From an uncultured Clostridia bacterium (GTDB lineage Bacteria > Bacillota_A > Clostridia > TANB77 > CAG-508): 15,951 nucleotides of DNA. The position numbers and the translations under genes were made by a program. Positions 4,775 through 14,349 of the stretch are shown piece after piece; the stretch's first letter is position 1; every line of letters starts with the position of its first letter. The notes under the pieces are model-generated. The model did no database searches. It saw only the letters and a program-made list of their open reading frames with translations, and had not been told where the DNA came from. The stretch spans positions 1 through 15,951 of the forward strand of contig CALXJS010000035.1 of assembly GCA_944388685.1 (NCBI GenBank). The letters are read 5' to 3'.

Positions 4775-5689
4775 TTATTTCGTTTTCTCTATTTCTAAAT
4801 TATTACCATCTGATATTATTCTTATTGTTCCGTTTTCATCTGTTCTATAGATTTCACTACCAAGAGTTTTTAACTTGTCAATTGTTTCTTGTTTTGGTAA
4901 CTTATACGAATTGTCTTTTCCTACCATTATAATAGCATATTTAGGTTGAATTTGTTCTAAGAATTCTTTTGAACTACTCGTATCTGATCCATGATGTCCT
5001 ACTTTTAATACATCTACCTTTGACCATGATATACTTTCTTCGTTTTCTTTTTCTGCATCTCCCATAAATAGAAAACTATTATTTCCAAATTCTAACCTAA
5101 TTACTAAAGATGATGAATTTAAATTATCTTCGTCCAATATTGGATCTGTCATAAATTCTGCTTTGGCTTGTCCAAATTCTATTTTATCCCCTTTTTTCGG
5201 AGAGGTTACTTTTAAATTTTTATTTTCTATAGCTTCTAACACATCTTGAAACGTTTTCGTTGTTGTTTCTATTTTAGGCATATAAATTTGTTCTATTTCA
5301 AAATTGTTTATCACATCATCCAATCCTCCAATATGATCTTCATGCGGATGTGTTCCTACTAAATAATTGATATGTGTAATTCCTAATTTTTTTAAATACT
5401 CGACGACTGTTTCTCCTGCTTCATTTGTCCCTGCATCTATTAGCATTACTTTATCTTGATTTCTAATCAAAATACTATCGGCTTGTCCTACATCAATGAA
5501 ATCTACTAATAAATTTTCCTCAGCTACAAAATCTATCTGTTGCATATTTTGCTGGTTTGTTTGATTTTCTGCAGTAGAAATTGTATTTAAAAATTGTTGG
5601 TTCGTACCTAAAATACTAGCAATTCCTATAATAATTAGTGTTATAATCCCTGATATAAATTTCTTCATTCCTTTTTTTCTTCTTGCCAT
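4775..5689 (-). CDS. Membrane-anchored ComEC-like metallo-beta-lactamase-fold hydrolase
   Basis: The 304-residue protein has a basic N-terminus (MARRKKGMKK), one hydrophobic segment at about 11-28 and a Gln/Asn-rich linker. This suggests a signal anchor or lipid-free secreted form. The MBL domain starts near 60 with the FIDVGQADSILI motif typical of ComEC/Rec2 C-terminal domains. It continues with LIDAG (83-87), the metal-binding HPHEDH (114-119), GDAE with Asp211, and GHHGSDTS with His232/His233. Relatives of the ComEC MBL domain are thought to degrade nucleic acid outside the membrane during DNA uptake. This one lacks the ComEC channel, so that role is only an analogy. GGGGAGG lies 6 nt before the ATG. 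Only 30 nt separate it from the upstream DUF3006 gene, so the two are probably co-transcribed. Confidence 0.88.
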   Translation of the reverse strand: MARRKKGMKKFISGIITLIIIGIASILGTNQQFLNTISTAENQTNQQNMQQIDFVAEENLLVDFIDVGQADSILIRNQDKVMLIDAGTNEAGETVVEYLKKLGITHINYLVGTHPHEDHIGGLDDVINNFEIEQIYMPKIETTTKTFQDVLEAIENKNLKVTSPKKGDKIEFGQAKAEFMTDPILDEDNLNSSSLVIRLEFGNNSFLFMGDAEKENEESISWSKVDVLKVGHHGSDTSSSKEFLEQIQPKYAIIMVGKDNSYKLPKQETIDKLKTLGSEIYRTDENGTIRIISDGNNLEIEKTK

Positions 5690-5719: not shown

Positions 5720-6058
5720 TTAATTCCATAATTTATCCATTTTTTCTTTAATTTCTTCTCTTGCTTTTTGTGTTAATTCTTGATTATATATATATTGACC
5801 ATTAATATATTGAACGATACTTCCTTCTTTTATGTTTTTTGGCAACATATCTTTTTTTACGTTTTTTATTTCATTTGTTTTTCTATTCTCTAAAACAACA
5901 TTATCACCTTCAATTCTATCTATGGCATATTCTTCTGTAGAATTTAATTTTGTTGTTATTTGTGTTTCTTCTCTCGTATTATTCTGTTCGATTTCTTTTT
6001 TTATATCTGTTATTTTTTCTTGTATACTATTAAGTAAATCTAAATTCATCATTGTCAT
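5720..6058 (-). CDS. DUF3006-domain protein with N-terminal extension
   Basis: The 112-residue protein has residues about 44-112 matching the small DUF3006 family: an AIDRIEGDNVVLE strand pair, then LPKNIKEGSIV, and an amphipathic C-terminal helix ending KMDKLWN. DUF3006 proteins are often only 70-80 residues. The first 40 residues here are an extra charged, helix-prone segment (LLNSIQEKITDIKKEIEQ). The biochemical function is unknown. Genes of this family are frequently found next to ComEC-like MBL hydrolases, and here the MBL gene starts 30 nt downstream, suggesting a functional pair. The predicted start at 6058 has TAGGAT five nt upstream; internal ATGs lie 6 and 9 nt later. No convincing promoter was found in the 150 nt upstream. 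Confidence 0.8.
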   Translation of the reverse strand: MTMMNLDLLNSIQEKITDIKKEIEQNNTREETQITTKLNSTEEYAIDRIEGDNVVLENRKTNEIKNVKKDMLPKNIKEGSIVQYINGQYIYNQELTQKAREEIKEKMDKLWN

Positions 6059-7115: not shown

Positions 7116-8405
7116 TTATTCACTTTCTAAATATAAAATTGTTCTAAAAGATATACTCTCATTTTGAGTTGTATTTCCTTCTTCCTGTCGCGTACTTGTA
7201 CAACAAAATTTCTTACTACTATACGCATCTCCTCTTCTTACGCAACGTGAATTATTTTTGATTTCTGTTGTCCATTCATAGCAGTTACTTGCTAAATCAT
7301 AAATATTGCATACTACATCTCCAGATTCTCCTGTCTTTAACAGTCCGTCTTCCATTGCATTTTTGCTTTGTTCTATTGAATATGCACTGTTTTGCTTTTG
7401 TATAAATAATAATACTGTATCAAAAGCATAACTATTCATTAAAGCACTATTCACTGTTTTATATAGTCCTTGACTATTGCTCACAGCTTCTGATTGTTCA
7501 ATTCTATTCCATACTTCTTGTCCATATTTACTTCCTACTTTAGTTTCTGTTCCTTTTGAAGCTTCATATCTAGCTATATAATAGCCACCATTTTCTTCAA
7601 CACTTTCAATAAACCCTTCTAATGTTGAATAATCTTCTTTATATCTGTCTCCAGACGCTTGTGTAGGCTTTAATTCTTTATCCAGAGCATCTGGTGTTAA
7701 TGTTTCATTAATCGTTCCATCATTATTAAAAACATATCTTCCTAATATAACTTCACCTTCTACTGCGTTTGTAACTGTCTTATTTCTTCCCATTAAACCA
7801 TCGACTGGTATCCATACATATTGATTTCCATACTTGTCTTCGATTACCATCCCATTACCAACATTTTCTTTTACAACTATATTTCCATTTTCATCTTTCC
7901 ATTTAGATGTATCTGTGTTTACTGGTTTAAAACCAGCTGGTATCATAGGATTTGTTGAACCTGATTCTGCCCCATCAATTGTACTAGGTACCGTAAAAAT
8001 ACCATCTTCTCCTGCTTCACCTGGAGTCCATCTTCCTTCCACTACACTACCATCGCTTTTTATTGTTACTTCATATCCATCAACGGCTACTGTCACTGGA
8101 TAGCTAGCCGAGGTTATACTAAATGGTATATCTGTTATATTCTCTATTTTTTCTAAATTCACTTTCAATGTGTCATTATTTATAATCTTATCTGCTTCTC
8201 TACTTCCCATAACTGCCATTTGTACTTGTTCTAATGCTTTTGCTTTATTCGTATCTTCTTTTGCCTCACTTGCTCTATTCATTATACCATTTTCTCCTGC
8301 AAGAGTTGCGATGCTAACGCCTGCTAGAATTAATAATACAATAATTGTAATAACTAGTGCAATTAAAGTAATACCCTTATTACACTGTTTTTGCTGTTTT
8401 TCCAT
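7116..8405 (-). CDS. Type IV pilin-like protein with degenerate SUMF1/FGE-like C-terminal domain
   Basis: The 429-residue protein has a short basic leader, a prepilin-type junction at Gly11/Ile12 and a hydrophobic helix at about 12-33. It lacks the usual Glu at +5 (Ala16 here), as often in clostridial pilin-like proteins. The C-terminal half (about 190-429) has the pattern of the formylglycine-generating-enzyme-like fold: YVWIPVDG (196-203), GGYYIARYEAS (273-283), IYDLASNCYEWT (368-379, compare GNVWEW), RRGDAY (390-395, compare RGGSW) and SFR near the end. Catalytic activity is doubtful, so a binding or display role on the cell surface is more likely. Five cysteines cluster at 366-402. AAAGGAAG precedes the ATG. 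It is a single-gene unit with its own promoter and terminator; no pilus assembly genes are in the window. Confidence 0.8.
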   Translation of the reverse strand: MEKQQKQCNKGITLIALVITIIVLLILAGVSIATLAGENGIMNRASEAKEDTNKAKALEQVQMAVMGSREADKIINNDTLKVNLEKIENITDIPFSITSASYPVTVAVDGYEVTIKSDGSVVEGRWTPGEAGEDGIFTVPSTIDGAESGSTNPMIPAGFKPVNTDTSKWKDENGNIVVKENVGNGMVIEDKYGNQYVWIPVDGLMGRNKTVTNAVEGEVILGRYVFNNDGTINETLTPDALDKELKPTQASGDRYKEDYSTLEGFIESVEENGGYYIARYEASKGTETKVGSKYGQEVWNRIEQSEAVSNSQGLYKTVNSALMNSYAFDTVLLFIQKQNSAYSIEQSKNAMEDGLLKTGESGDVVCNIYDLASNCYEWTTEIKNNSRCVRRGDAYSSKKFCCTSTRQEEGNTTQNESISFRTILYLESE

Positions 8406-11015: not shown

Positions 11016-11191
11016 GTGTCAAATTGGACATTTAAGAACAATAGTGGGCTATTTCGACATTTTATCTGTTTTGGACATTTCAAAGCCCACGTCATTGTTC
11101 GTGTGCCAAATTTTACAAAGTAAAATTTGTGTACAATGTTTGCAATTTTAGAAAAATCAAAGATTTTTCTAAAATTGTCCAAAAGGGACAC
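11016..11191. repeat. 176-bp palindromic element forming the ABC operon leader
   Basis: This element fills most of the 450-bp gap between the ABC ATPase and the repeat-protein gene. It has imperfect terminal inverted repeats, GTGTCAAATTGGACA (11016-11030) and TGTCCAAAAGGGACAC (11176-11191). Inside are three consecutive hairpins: a 16-bp perfect stem at 11143-11158/11162-11177 with a 3-nt loop, a 10-bp perfect stem at 11107-11116/11120-11129, and a larger stem GAACAAT..TGGGCT with AGCCCA..ATTGTTC (11036-11050/11084-11100). No transposase ORF is present. Its end lies 6 bp from the ATPase ribosome binding site. It looks like a MITE-like repeat captured as a 5' UTR, or a structured leader RNA. 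Partial look-alikes occur at 1602-1641 and about 11281-11295. Confidence 0.6.
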
Positions 11192-11210
11192 TCCTTATTT
11201 TTTCTCATGT

Positions 11211-11239
11211 ATTATATTATTTAATTTCTATATTTACAA
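11211..11239 (-). promoter_or_regulatory. SigA-type promoter of the ABC transporter operon
   Basis: Minus-strand -35 TTGTAA (11234-11239) and -10 TATAAT (11211-11216) are spaced by 17 bp, just outside the palindromic element. A start near 11204 would put the whole element in a leader of about 209 nt. Confidence 0.65.
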
Positions 11240-11245
11240 TAGTTC

Positions 11246-11272
11246 TATGACAAATTGTTGTGATTTGTCATA
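11246..11272. promoter_or_regulatory. Operator-like inverted repeat upstream of the ABC promoter
   Basis: Perfect 10-bp arms TATGACAAAT and ATTTGTCATA are separated by 7 bp, ending 6 bp upstream of the predicted -35. The position just upstream of -35 suits an activator or a dimeric regulator. No regulator gene is adjacent. The rest of the gap (11273-11362) is AT-rich with no recognisable feature apart from a short TIR-like word near 11281-11295. Confidence 0.5.
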
Positions 11273-11362
11273 AAATTAATAATTGTCCTTTTGGGTAAAT
11301 TTTTATAGTTAAAGTACTTATGTGTTGTAATTTCAATAACAAAAATTATATTTTCATCTAAT

Positions 11363-11445: not shown

Positions 11446-14169
11446 CTAATATTCCATTCCTTTTTCATTGCTTTTACTTAAATTTAAAACACGATTATAT
11501 AAATTTTCTATATATTGCGTGTCTTTGCTTTTTTCTGCTATTCTTTCTAGTAAAATTTCTATTCTATCCCATTTACTGATAGCATCTGACTGAATCTCTA
11601 CATTTTGAGATTGCATATTTACATACACTTTTTCTCTTTGTTTTTGTATAAATTGATGTATGTAATTTATCATCATTTGCGTTTGATTGTTAACATTTTT
11701 CTCTTCATTATTTCTGTGATTTATTATGTTTGGTTGTTCATTTGATGTTTTAGGACTCGTTACTGCTAACTTTTTTCTATATTCTGCACTTTTGTCTAAT
11801 TTTTCTCCGCTATGTGTTGGAGCTTTAGGATGCTTTTCGACTGGCTTTATGGTAGACTGCGTGGTCTCTATTTTGGGAAGTACTGTTATTTGTTGTTTCT
11901 TTGCTTCTTGCTCTTCTCGTTCTACTTTTAATTCTTCCTCATATTGGGCTTTTAATTTGTCGTTAAATGACCAATGCAATATCAAGTCATATTTTGCAAT
12001 ATCAAAAATTTGTGGTTTTTTTGATTTAATTCTTTCCATAATTCCATTGACTACACTTTTTTCTTGCTTATCTGTTGGATGAAACGTTTTTAAAACTTCT
12101 TTTGCCTTTCCTTTCATATTTCTTTTTTCACAGATAGCAAGTAAACTAACTATTTTTTCAAATTCATCTAAATCCTCGCTTAATTCTATTTCACTGATTA
12201 ATTGATCATCTACTTTATCAAAGTATAGTTTTGTTTTTAGAGAATCTAATATTTTTTTCTTATTATTTTTACGATTTATCTTACTGTTTACTTTCGTTTG
12301 TTTTATCTCTTCTTCTATTTCAAATATTTTTTCATACTTTTTCAACTCTTTCATCTTTGCTATTTGATGTTGGATTAGTTCATTATTGGGAAATTTCATT
12401 CCTATTTCTTTTGCTCTATCAAAATCACCTTCTCGAATTGCTATTGTTATCATTTGAGATTGGATTGGTGCATAATTTTCAAATCTTTCGCCTATTTCTT
12501 TTGCTCTTTTTAAATCTCCTTCTTTGATTGCTATTGTTGCCATTTGAGATTGAATTGGTGCATCTTTCTCAAATCTTTTACCTATTTCTTTTGCTCTATC
12601 AAAATCATCTTCTTGGATGGCTATTGTTACCATCTGCGATTGAATTGGTCCATGTTTTGGAAATCTTGATCCAATTTCTTTTCCTTTATTAAAATCTCCT
12701 TCTTGGATGGCTATCGTTACCATCTGTGATTGAATAGGTGCATTTTCTGGAAATTTTGCACCTATTTCTTTTGCTCTTTTTAAATCTCCTTCTTTGATTG
12801 CTATTGTTGCCATTTGAGATTGAATTGGTGCATCTTTCTCAAATCTTTTACCTATTTCTTTTGCTCTTTTTAAATCTCCTTCTTGGATTGCTATTGTTAC
12901 CATTTGAGATTGGATTAGTGCATTTTCTGGAAATTTTGCACCTATTTTTTTTGCTCTATCAAAATCATTTTCTTGGATGGCTATTGTTACCATCTGAGAT
13001 TGGATTGGTGCATTTTCTGGAAATTTTGCACCTATTTTTTTTGCTCTATGAAAATCATCTTCTTGGATAGCGATTGTTATCATTTGAAATTGGATTGGTG
13101 TATAATTTTCAAATCTTTTACCTATTTCTTTTGCTCTTTTTAAATCTCCTTCTTGGATGGCTATTGTTACCATTTGAGATTGAATTGGTGCATATTTCTC
13201 AAATGTTTTTCCTATTTCTTTTGCTCTTTTTAAATCTCCTTCTTGGATGGCTATTGTTGCCATTTGAGATTGAATTGGTGCATTTTCTGGAAATTTTGCA
13301 CCTATTTCTTTTGCTCTTTTTAAATCTCCTTCTTGGATTGCTATTGTTACCATTTGAGATTGAATTGGTGCATTTTCTTGAAACTTTGCACCTATTTCTT
13401 TTGCTCTATCAAAATTTCCTTCTTGGATTGCTATTGTTACCATTTGAGATTGAATTGGTGCATTTTCTTGAAACTTTGCACCTATTTCTTTTGCTCTATC
13501 AAAATTTCCTTCTTGGATTGCTATTGTTACCATTTGAGATTGGATTGGCGCATATTTCTCAAATCTTTTACCTATTTCTTTTGCTCTTTTTAAATCTCCT
13601 TCTTGGATGGCTATTGTTACCATTTGAGATTGAATTGGTGCATTTTCTGGAAATTTTGCTCCTATTTCTTTTGCTCTATCAAAATTTCCTTCTTGGATGG
13701 CTATTGTTACCATTTGAGATTGGATTGGTGCATGTCCTTCAAATGTTTTTCCTATTTCTTTTGCTCTTTTTAAATCTCCTTCTTGGATGGCTATTGTTAT
13801 CATTTGAGATTGTATTGGTGCATCATTTAGAAATCTTTCTCCAATTCTTTTAGCTTCTTTAAATCTTTTTTCTTTTATTAGCCTTTTTATTATTTTTGAT
13901 TGTTCAATAGCCTGCATTATAAATGTTTTTTCTTTAGTATCTTCATTTGATTGCTTAAAACCTACTATTTTCTTTTCTTTTTCTATTTCTTTTTTTGTAC
14001 TTTTATTAGTTTCATCTTTTTCCTGATTTTCTTTTGATAAATTTGCTTTGTTTCTCCACTTATATAACGTTGGTATACTAATTCCCGTTTCTTCAGATAT
14101 ATTTTTTATCTTATCACCATTTTCTATTCTCTTCAAAATTTTTTGTTTTATTTCTTCAGAATAAGCCAT
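11446..14169 (-). CDS. HTH protein with sixteen 30-residue helical (TPR-like) repeats
   Basis: I do not recognise this 907-residue protein as a named family. Residues 1-45 are a helix-turn-helix like that of IS3-type transposase OrfA (ISIPTLYKWRNKA), but no transposase catalytic domain follows. A lysine/glutamate-rich linker (45-85) and one divergent helical hairpin (about 90-116) lead into sixteen tandem 30-residue units (117-596) and a decayed seventeenth. Each unit looks like two short helices, similar to TPR/PPR solenoids but shorter. Residues about 640-760 are another helical region, 760-830 a charged Pro/Thr/Asn-rich linker, and 830-907 a helical tail. There is no signal peptide, so it is probably cytoplasmic. 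GGAGGGTGA precedes the ATG at 14169, and it has its own promoter and terminator. The HTH suggests DNA binding and the solenoid protein or nucleic-acid binding; both are inference. Confidence 0.9.
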   Translation of the reverse strand: MAYSEEIKQKILKRIENGDKIKNISEETGISIPTLYKWRNKANLSKENQEKDETNKSTKKEIEKEKKIVGFKQSNEDTKEKTFIMQAIEQSKIIKRLIKEKRFKEAKRIGERFLNDAPIQSQMITIAIQEGDLKRAKEIGKTFEGHAPIQSQMVTIAIQEGNFDRAKEIGAKFPENAPIQSQMVTIAIQEGDLKRAKEIGKRFEKYAPIQSQMVTIAIQEGNFDRAKEIGAKFQENAPIQSQMVTIAIQEGNFDRAKEIGAKFQENAPIQSQMVTIAIQEGDLKRAKEIGAKFPENAPIQSQMATIAIQEGDLKRAKEIGKTFEKYAPIQSQMVTIAIQEGDLKRAKEIGKRFENYTPIQFQMITIAIQEDDFHRAKKIGAKFPENAPIQSQMVTIAIQENDFDRAKKIGAKFPENALIQSQMVTIAIQEGDLKRAKEIGKRFEKDAPIQSQMATIAIKEGDLKRAKEIGAKFPENAPIQSQMVTIAIQEGDFNKGKEIGSRFPKHGPIQSQMVTIAIQEDDFDRAKEIGKRFEKDAPIQSQMATIAIKEGDLKRAKEIGERFENYAPIQSQMITIAIREGDFDRAKEIGMKFPNNELIQHQIAKMKELKKYEKIFEIEEEIKQTKVNSKINRKNNKKKILDSLKTKLYFDKVDDQLISEIELSEDLDEFEKIVSLLAICEKRNMKGKAKEVLKTFHPTDKQEKSVVNGIMERIKSKKPQIFDIAKYDLILHWSFNDKLKAQYEEELKVEREEQEAKKQQITVLPKIETTQSTIKPVEKHPKAPTHSGEKLDKSAEYRKKLAVTSPKTSNEQPNIINHRNNEEKNVNNQTQMMINYIHQFIQKQREKVYVNMQSQNVEIQSDAISKWDRIEILLERIAEKSKDTQYIENLYNRVLNLSKSNEKGMEY
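12382..13821. repeat. In-frame tandem array, 16 x 90 bp
   Basis: Sixteen contiguous 90-bp units encode the solenoid of the preceding gene. No length changes occur, and conservation extends to synonymous positions. Two segments show exact recent copying: 13327-13452 equals 13417-13542 (126 bp, a tandem one-unit shift), and 12491-12597 equals 12761-12867 (107 bp, a three-unit shift). Variation concentrates at codons 15-18 and 25-30 of the unit. The opposite strand stays open in long frames because the unit has no stop in those frames; those are artefacts. Confidence 0.97.
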
Positions 14170-14211
14170 AAGTCACCCTCCACTTCTATCCTTGTAATTT
14201 GGATTTATATT

Positions 14212-14240
14212 ATTATACAATGATATAGTTGATTTTTCAA
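14212..14240 (-). promoter_or_regulatory. SigA-type promoter of the repeat-protein gene
   Basis: Minus-strand -35 TTGAAA (14235-14240) and -10 TATAAT (14212-14217) are spaced by 17 bp, about 43 bp upstream of the ATG. A near Spo0A-box word, TAGTCGAA (14246-14253, one mismatch to TTGTCGAA), lies 5 bp upstream of the -35; this is weak evidence for Spo0A control. Confidence 0.72.
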
Positions 14241-14297
14241 TGTTTTTCGACTATTTGTTTCAAAAATGAGTTAAAAATGGAAACACACAAAAAGTGC

Positions 14298-14340
14298 AAA
14301 AAGGCGATATCAATTTCACATTTATTGATATCGCCTTTTT
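14298..14340 (-). terminator. Strong intrinsic terminator after ileS
   Basis: A 17-bp perfect stem AAAAAGGCGATATCAAT (14298-14314) with 14324-14340 has a 9-nt loop and ends in five T on the minus strand. It begins 9 nt past the ileS stop codon. Confidence 0.93.
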
Positions 14341-14349
14341 ACTATATTA

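Follow-up and report, generated by a model that had tools for sequence, protein, structure and literature searches.

In ordinary tetratricopeptide repeat (TPR) proteins, the unit varies at helix-A positions 2, 5, 9, 12 and 13, and the consensus junction between units reads 'DPNN-A'. In OGT, the substrate is held by its backbone on a ladder of asparagines within the TPR superhelix (PMC8586251, in the available part of the article). TPR arrays of fungal NLR proteins have from 2 to more than 14 units and show positive selection on the concave face (PMC4986451, likewise in its available part). We analysed a stretch of 15,951 nucleotides from an uncultured Clostridia bacterium of the gut (contig CALXJS010000035.1 of GCA_944388685.1, here called the window), which carries a gene for a 907-residue protein with an N-terminal helix-turn-helix (HTH), a solenoid and a C-terminal region (Table 1). 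We lean towards the view that this protein is a DNA-tethered TPR scaffold whose short 30-residue units are under rapid tandem turnover. The repeat type is a known one, and the surprise lies in the evolution of the array, not in its fold. Literature searches found no publication on this family.

The units matched the Pfam model TPR_19 at 105.7 bits in 12 stretches (cut-off 25). The AlphaFold model is a regular two-helix solenoid, in which tandem antiparallel hairpins wind into a superhelix and helix B is short (unit residues 17-26). Profile and predicted structure together identify the units as tetratricopeptide repeats with a short helix B. They share the two-helix unit and the fold with OGT (1w3b) and with consensus TPRs, as well as the turn G15-x-[LFY]17-x-x-A20, and the junction 'FPNN-A' resembles the TPR consensus. 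They differ in having 30 rather than 34 residues and a short helix B, and in positions 2, 5, 9, 12 and 13, which except for 13 are nearly constant in the window, less so in the relatives. An earlier interpretation made from the letters alone (the sequence-only reading) had proposed a solenoid of two-helix units and had allowed for a plain TPR-like scaffold as a fallback; the model and the profile bear out both. The transposase-like HTH that it had seen at the N-terminus matched HTH_Tnp_1 at 32.1 bits (cut-off 24.1). This profile is shared with IS3-type transposases, but the protein has no transposase-sized match, and the NCBIfam IS3 model scored 17.1 bits against a cut-off of 160. Other Pfam models above their cut-offs over the array were Clathrin (52.6 bits), YqaH (50.8), TPR_30 (45.9, kin of TPR), AAA_lid_RFC1 (36.8), DUF2007 (36.2) and HTH_10 (27.6). 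We took these and the PHROG rows as repetitive-helix matches rather than domains. Among PDB sequences the best match was 7rdr, a circular repeat protein made by design (E 4.5e-9); the third was a synthetic PPR-DYW (E 0.3). Residues 640-907 had no Pfam match at E up to 0.1, and the folds of the two C-terminal parts (C-mid and C-end in Table 1) were barely tested by fold searches, since the searches with both models were filled by the solenoid.

The array consists of sixteen gap-free units in register, the number given by the sequence-only reading, and its DNA has a 90-nt period far above chance (16.3 copies, 85% matches, score 1889 in Tandem Repeats Finder). The degenerate cap units on either side were absent from the listing in that reading. 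Its claim of near-invariance outside two patches, residues 15-18 and 25-30, stood in part: both patches vary, but so do positions 8 (V/I/A) and 13 (Q/K/R). Residues 15-18 are GDLK in 8 of the 16 units, as had been read, GNFD in three, and DDFH, NDFD, GDFN, DDFD and GDFD in one each. Residue 28 is E in seven units and P or Q in nine, S5 is present in 15 of 16, and the last residue is N, Y, D or H. Of the entropy in the window unit, 71% falls on its eight most variable positions; the corresponding share in the family is 43%, and within-array variation is more diffuse there (Spearman 0.56 with the window). L17 occurs with E28 in 6 of 8 units and F17 with P or Q at 28 in 7 of 8 (13 of 16 together; Fisher p = 0.04). 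Positions 17 and 28 are therefore linked, and mostly distinguish two somewhat mixed unit subtypes instead of varying independently. In the relative P0001, units 2-7 alternate strictly between the two subtypes. A 60-residue higher-order repeat was rejected for the window, where DNA identity gave no signal at lag 2 (0.838, shuffles 0.853).

Ninety-one of 104 sequences had at least four regular 30-residue units and were collapsed to 44 distinct array consensuses; the set leaves out sequences with units of 32 residues or longer, or with fewer units. IQSQ is retained in all 44. Q4, S5 and Q6 are the consensus in every one (mean within-array entropy 0.33-0.37 bits) and T9 in 43 (0.89 bits). At position 13 the window units carry Q, three of the sixteen excepted (K or R), and 33 of the 44 consensuses carry K.

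Conserved units with a few varied positions had suggested a modular code of the TALE or PUF type to the sequence-only reading. TALE units have 33-35 residues, and their variation is limited to one adjacent residue pair on the DNA-facing side. Here the variation is at residues 15-18 and 25-30 and at positions 8 and 13. By the secondary structure of the model, residues 15-18 would form the turn between helices A and B and the start of helix B, and residues 25-30 the last part of helix B and the loop leading to the following unit, 27-30 being in the loop. The two patches lie at opposite ends of helix B and would not be on one face. Within each of five IQSQ-type arrays, units were compared for their silent and amino-acid differences. 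The arrays were those of the window (15 of 16 units, as the script required a following unit), L017 (14), L018 (9), L056 (8) and L057 (16); all intervals on these ratios are rough because the units share descent. For residues 15-18, amino-acid change divided by silent change gave a ratio of 3.56 in the window (2.3 with all 16 units), with an interval above zero. It was 0.67 in L017, 0.31 in L018, 1.77 in L056 and 0.49 in L057, none with an interval above zero, so the excess is clear in one of five arrays. A TALE-like code at residues 15-18 and 25-30 was rejected; even the 1.77 of L056 has an interval that includes zero. The assignment of the units to TPR, a characterised scaffold family, and the predicted place of the patches in turn and loop also speak against such a code, as does the variable number of units, down to zero, which is unlike what an ordered code would lead one to expect. 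The DNA-reading repeats STAR, MOON and pTERF share with this array and with TALE a conserved unit and few variable positions, and pTERF likewise comes from gut Clostridia metagenome-assembled genomes (MAGs), but its units have three helices and those described here are TPR hairpins (PMC11417379, as far as its available text goes). A TALE-inspired repeat screen set TPR arrays aside as known non-TALE repeats (PMC5472282, in the part available). The array does not look like a code for reading sequence; it looks like a common binding scaffold in a fast-changing form.

The protein search gave at least 96 relatives (scoring was limited to the 7990 candidates that shared most words). Across the family the HTH and the C-terminal end are kept, and the array between them is resized, absent or replaced. 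The number of units is zero in L058 and four further proteins, one in L053, two in L049, seven in P0001 and sixteen in the window. In other relatives the array is replaced by units of 32-35 residues; the spacings were 30, 32, 33 and 35. The 183 residues of L058 match two parts of the window protein, its HTH (60%) and its C-end (31%). The four other short proteins are built in the same way, one of them beginning inside the HTH, and L050 and L051 have no HTH by eye. L049, with its two units counted by eye, lies between ileS (963 bits) and ABC transporter genes; L053 follows ileS (968 bits), and its contig ends past the gene. Unit number varies among close relatives and at one chromosomal site. 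The N-terminus was classed and the C region recognisable in 67 of the 96 relatives, among which 353 pairs had C regions at least 95% identical. The IQxQ count differed in 195 of these pairs, which are not 195 events, as the counts include stray motifs and shared descent. HTH-type and MNEKIS-type N-termini occur on identical C regions (P0029/P0061 and P0025/P0054), either by recombination (domain swapping) between loci or by chimeric assembly. Metagenome assembly may have distorted the unit counts.

In the genome-contig scan, L001 from an uncultured Clostridium MAG was the sole relative of the window. Of 145 genomes from the family to which G001 belongs, 8 had a match to the window protein. The C-terminal profile A3 had matches in 15 of 292 genomes from that family, 11 of 191 at the level of the order, 4 of 291 at class level (two of these weak, at 21.0 and 18.6 bits) and 1 of 299 at phylum level; the samples overlap, and each includes G001. 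Profile A3 misses G118 and G079, both found with the window protein and, going by their handle numbers, both included in the 292-genome sample. The frame reaches the contig end in 5 of the 18 matched genomes of the family and order scans (G001, G155, G240, G039 and G372). This would be expected if assemblies break at near-identical repeats, and absence of the family is therefore probably overcounted. A phage or plasmid origin was rejected: there was no match in 50,697 phage records, none of 101 pattern stretches in viral contigs was confirmed, and the plasmid search gave one weak match (27% of the query at 29% identity).

Residues 597-907 compared with the G001 orthologue gave a ratio of non-synonymous to synonymous change (dN/dS) of 0.29 over 287 codons, and the C-terminal part compared with L049 and with L053 gave 0.42 each. 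For the HTH the values were 0.23 and 0.50 (45 codons). Purifying selection acts on the C-terminal part, and the gene is therefore not junk.

In the DNA-tethered scaffold that we favour, the HTH would place the protein on DNA, and the C-terminal end may join copies. The solenoid would present a repeated polar groove made of the helix-A residues Q4, S5, Q6, T9 and Q/K13, which are nearly invariant in the window. This groove might grip an extended partner, most simply a polypeptide backbone, in the manner of the OGT asparagine ladder. Tandem duplication would enlarge, shorten and homogenise the array, and the number of units would tune length and avidity. The two 'flavours' of unit would then be subtypes left over from the duplication history. 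The rim of the groove, not residues 15-18, could tune specificity, as hinted by the excess change at the inter-unit loop. At the groove set 4, 5, 6, 9, 12 and 13 the ratio was 0.14 in the window, 0.50 in L017, 0.13 in L018, 0.39 in L056 and 0.50 in L057. At the textbook set 2, 5, 9, 12 and 13 it was 0.37, 1.08, 2.38, 0.92 and 0.94 in the same order, with an interval above zero in L018. Without position 2 it was 0.33 in the window, 0.80 in L017, 0.68 in L056 and 0.64 in L057, and L018 had no silent change. In helix A of L020, amino-acid change is likewise present and silent change absent. The groove is nearly frozen in the window array and less so in the relatives. We dropped a frozen groove as a trait of the family, the textbook set being unconstrained in the relatives, and this counts against the scaffold. 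Because the groove claim is limited to the window, we slightly lowered our confidence in the scaffold, slightly raised that in the receptor discussed next, and took a little from the near-neutral and peptide-sensing explanations further below.

The main rival is a recognition receptor of the kind with high internal conservation, whose array selection would reshuffle and diversify so that it keeps up with a partner that itself changes, such as a phage, a rival or a self marker, as is thought for fungal NLR arrays of TPR, ANK and WD repeats. The closest evolutionary parallel that we have seen is this fungal set, with array turnover apparently common to both. The TPR arrays of Podospora have near-identical units, unit numbers that differ among close relatives, and amino-acid change above silent change at some positions, all of which recur here. 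The inter-unit loop (the last three residues with residues 1 and 2) gave a ratio of non-synonymous to synonymous differences per site (pN/pS) of 1.27 in the window, 1.34 in L017, 1.33 in L018, 1.47 in L056 and 2.51 in L057, above the silent rate in all five IQSQ arrays, against 0.48, 0.21 and 0.64 in three canonical-TPR relatives (5, 7 and 10 units only); however, the interval is above zero in just two of the five, L017 and L057. Nine positions preset from other arrays gave a dN/dS of 1.95 in the window (15 of 16 units), but 1.01 in L017, 0.73 in L018 and 1.25 in L056, where the excess is not clear. When the patches were chosen post hoc, the window gave 1.61 against 0.16, a contrast biased by that choice. 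The selected sites of the fungal TPR arrays are all on concave helices (PMC4986451, in its available part), whereas the varied positions of the window are in loops, and a concave-helix excess is seen in one of five arrays at best (the textbook set in L018), with 0.37 in the window. No NOD domain was found, and the Pfam list holds no effector or nucleotide-binding domain except the AAA-lid row, which was judged spurious. Reading of neighbourhoods by eye brought up no defence gene, and PADLOC gave weak matches only (best E 0.0033). On balance we regard a receptor as unlikely.

Repeat inflation could also be nearly neutral, with slippage adding units to a tolerant scaffold whose length matters only as the spacing between the HTH and the C-end. 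Such drift would fit the persistence of members with zero, one and two units, the IQxQ differences in 195 of 353 near-identical pairs, the patchy presence (15 of 292 genomes) and the internal stops in the matches of G168 and G240. It fits poorly with the unit core positions of the window array, which are constrained (pN/pS 0.10), with a frame that is open across sixteen units, and with the IQSQ kept in 44 of 44 consensuses. We consider this explanation rather improbable.

A nucleic-acid reader similar to PPR proteins is very unlikely. Such a protein would be tethered to DNA by its HTH and would read single-stranded RNA or DNA at one base per 30-residue hairpin: S5 would be fixed, K/Q13 would hold the phosphate, and the last residue together with the inter-unit loop would choose the base, with residues 15-18 uninvolved. 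The PPR code uses residue 5 and the last residue, with K, R or Q at 13 (PMC4837458 and PMC11094755), and synthetic PPRs tolerate glutamine at that position (PMC11094755), according to the available parts of these articles. The array shares with PPR the superhelix of helical hairpins, a polar residue 5, K/Q/R at 13 and N/D/Y/H as last residue, and the model fits RNA-bound dPPR and single-stranded-DNA-bound cPPR at 5.2-6.0 Å. Free cPPR-Telo1 (5orm), however, fits at 10.9 Å only, the unit has 30 and not 35 residues, and residue 5 is nearly constant. The array is nearly neutral (net charge +2 over 480 residues) and its helix A is uncharged in 13 of 16 units, the other three having K or R at 13, so that binding of nucleic acid by the solenoid is not favoured. 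The Pfam list for the window protein has no PPR model at E up to 10; PF01535 (PPR) is among the precomputed domains of some relatives. If the protein were PPR-like, tandem duplication would make this nucleic-acid reader longer or shorter.

A peptide-sensing transcription regulator acting like the RRNPP receptors of Gram-positive bacteria can be all but set aside. In its favour are the order HTH then TPR, shared with those receptors, and a low-GC host with spoVS and Clostridium-MAG kin. Against it, the protein has 907 residues where the published signature has 250-500 (PMC10075063, in the part available), its HTH is of the transposase kind, the Pfam list contains no Cro/C1-type HTH, and no small secreted neighbour was convincing by eye among the listed open reading frames (ORFs) on both sides, no signal-peptide program being used.

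Judging from the terminator-like and promoter-like signals that flank it (Table 1), the HTH-TPR gene looks like a single-gene unit. The hairpin upstream of the gene folds at -26.3 kcal/mol (z -8.2), equalled by none of 200 shuffles. The promoter-like sequence is weak evidence, as the consensus scan found 20 such sites in the region against 16.1 +/- 4.3 in shuffles. The ileS-like ORF upstream is interrupted by the end of the window; its best part scores 337 bits to TIGR00392, below the whole-protein cut-off because the ORF is partial. An ABC transporter pair lies downstream.

Table 1. Features of the HTH-TPR gene and its flanks in the window; residue numbers refer to the 907-residue protein.
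Feature	Position	Strand	Basis
HTH - TPR solenoid - C-terminal region gene, ATG start, 907 aa	11446..14169	-	ORF list; relatives of same architecture
Promoter-like TTGAAA-17-TATAAT, 11/12, upstream of gene	14212..14240	-	Consensus scan
Shine-Dalgarno-like GGAGGG, 6 nt 5' of ATG	14176..14181	-	Read from sequence
Terminator-like hairpin and U tail, between ileS-like ORF and gene	14296..14342	-	Fold
Terminator-like inverted repeat, U-rich side, 3' of stop codon	11361..11406	-	17-nt arms, 88% complementary
Residues 1-45, transposase-type helix-turn-helix	14035..14169	-	Pfam HTH_Tnp_1; model helices 5-16, 21-28, 32-67
Residues 46-86, helical/charged linker, low confidence in part	13912..14034	-	Model confidence (pLDDT) <50 at 56-61, 63-77
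Residues 87-116, degenerate N-cap unit	13822..13911	-	Register of 30-aa units
Residues 117-596, sixteen 30-aa TPR-like units	12382..13821	-	Repeat finding, Pfam, model
Residues 597-626, degenerate C-cap unit	12292..12381	-	Unit register; model helix 597-624
Residues 631-762, helical 'C-mid', common to much of family	11884..12279	-	Relatives and model
Residues 763-817, disordered linker	11719..11883	-	pLDDT <50 at 762-825
Residues 818-907, helical 'C-end', MQS..WD motif	11449..11718	-	Model (helices 818-899); retained in zero-unit members

Several other observations were made in the window and around the relatives. Open frames of up to 259 residues run antisense to the array (13074-13853 on the plus strand and similar ones) and seem to arise from the repeat itself rather than to be genes. 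The intergenic stretch 11020-11340 contains several inverted repeats built on TGTCCAAAA and CAATTTTAGAAAAATC, and could be the remnant of a small mobile element. Two pieces resembling one transposase gene were seen by eye at 12925-14440 of L023, beside the family member of G039. The protein encoded at 7116-8405 (minus strand) has a prepilin-like hydrophobic stretch near its start, GITLIALVITIIVLLILAG, and no Pfam match at E up to 0.001. Prepilin-like N-termini also occur at 8491-9855 of L023 and 290-1765 of L053, and similar ones were seen by eye near family members elsewhere. A metallo-beta-lactamase-fold protein adjoins a DUF3006 protein at 4775-5689 and 5720-6058 (minus strand), and by eye such a pair also lies beyond the ABC transporter in L025.

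The new element is best filed as a short-unit TPR array, elastic in length, within a protein that has a DNA-binding domain. With members of zero to sixteen units, the family offers a natural series for studying the growth of repeat proteins and the role of unit number. It is also useful for asking whether recognition in bacteria makes use of shuffled near-identical repeats, as seems to be the case in some fungi.

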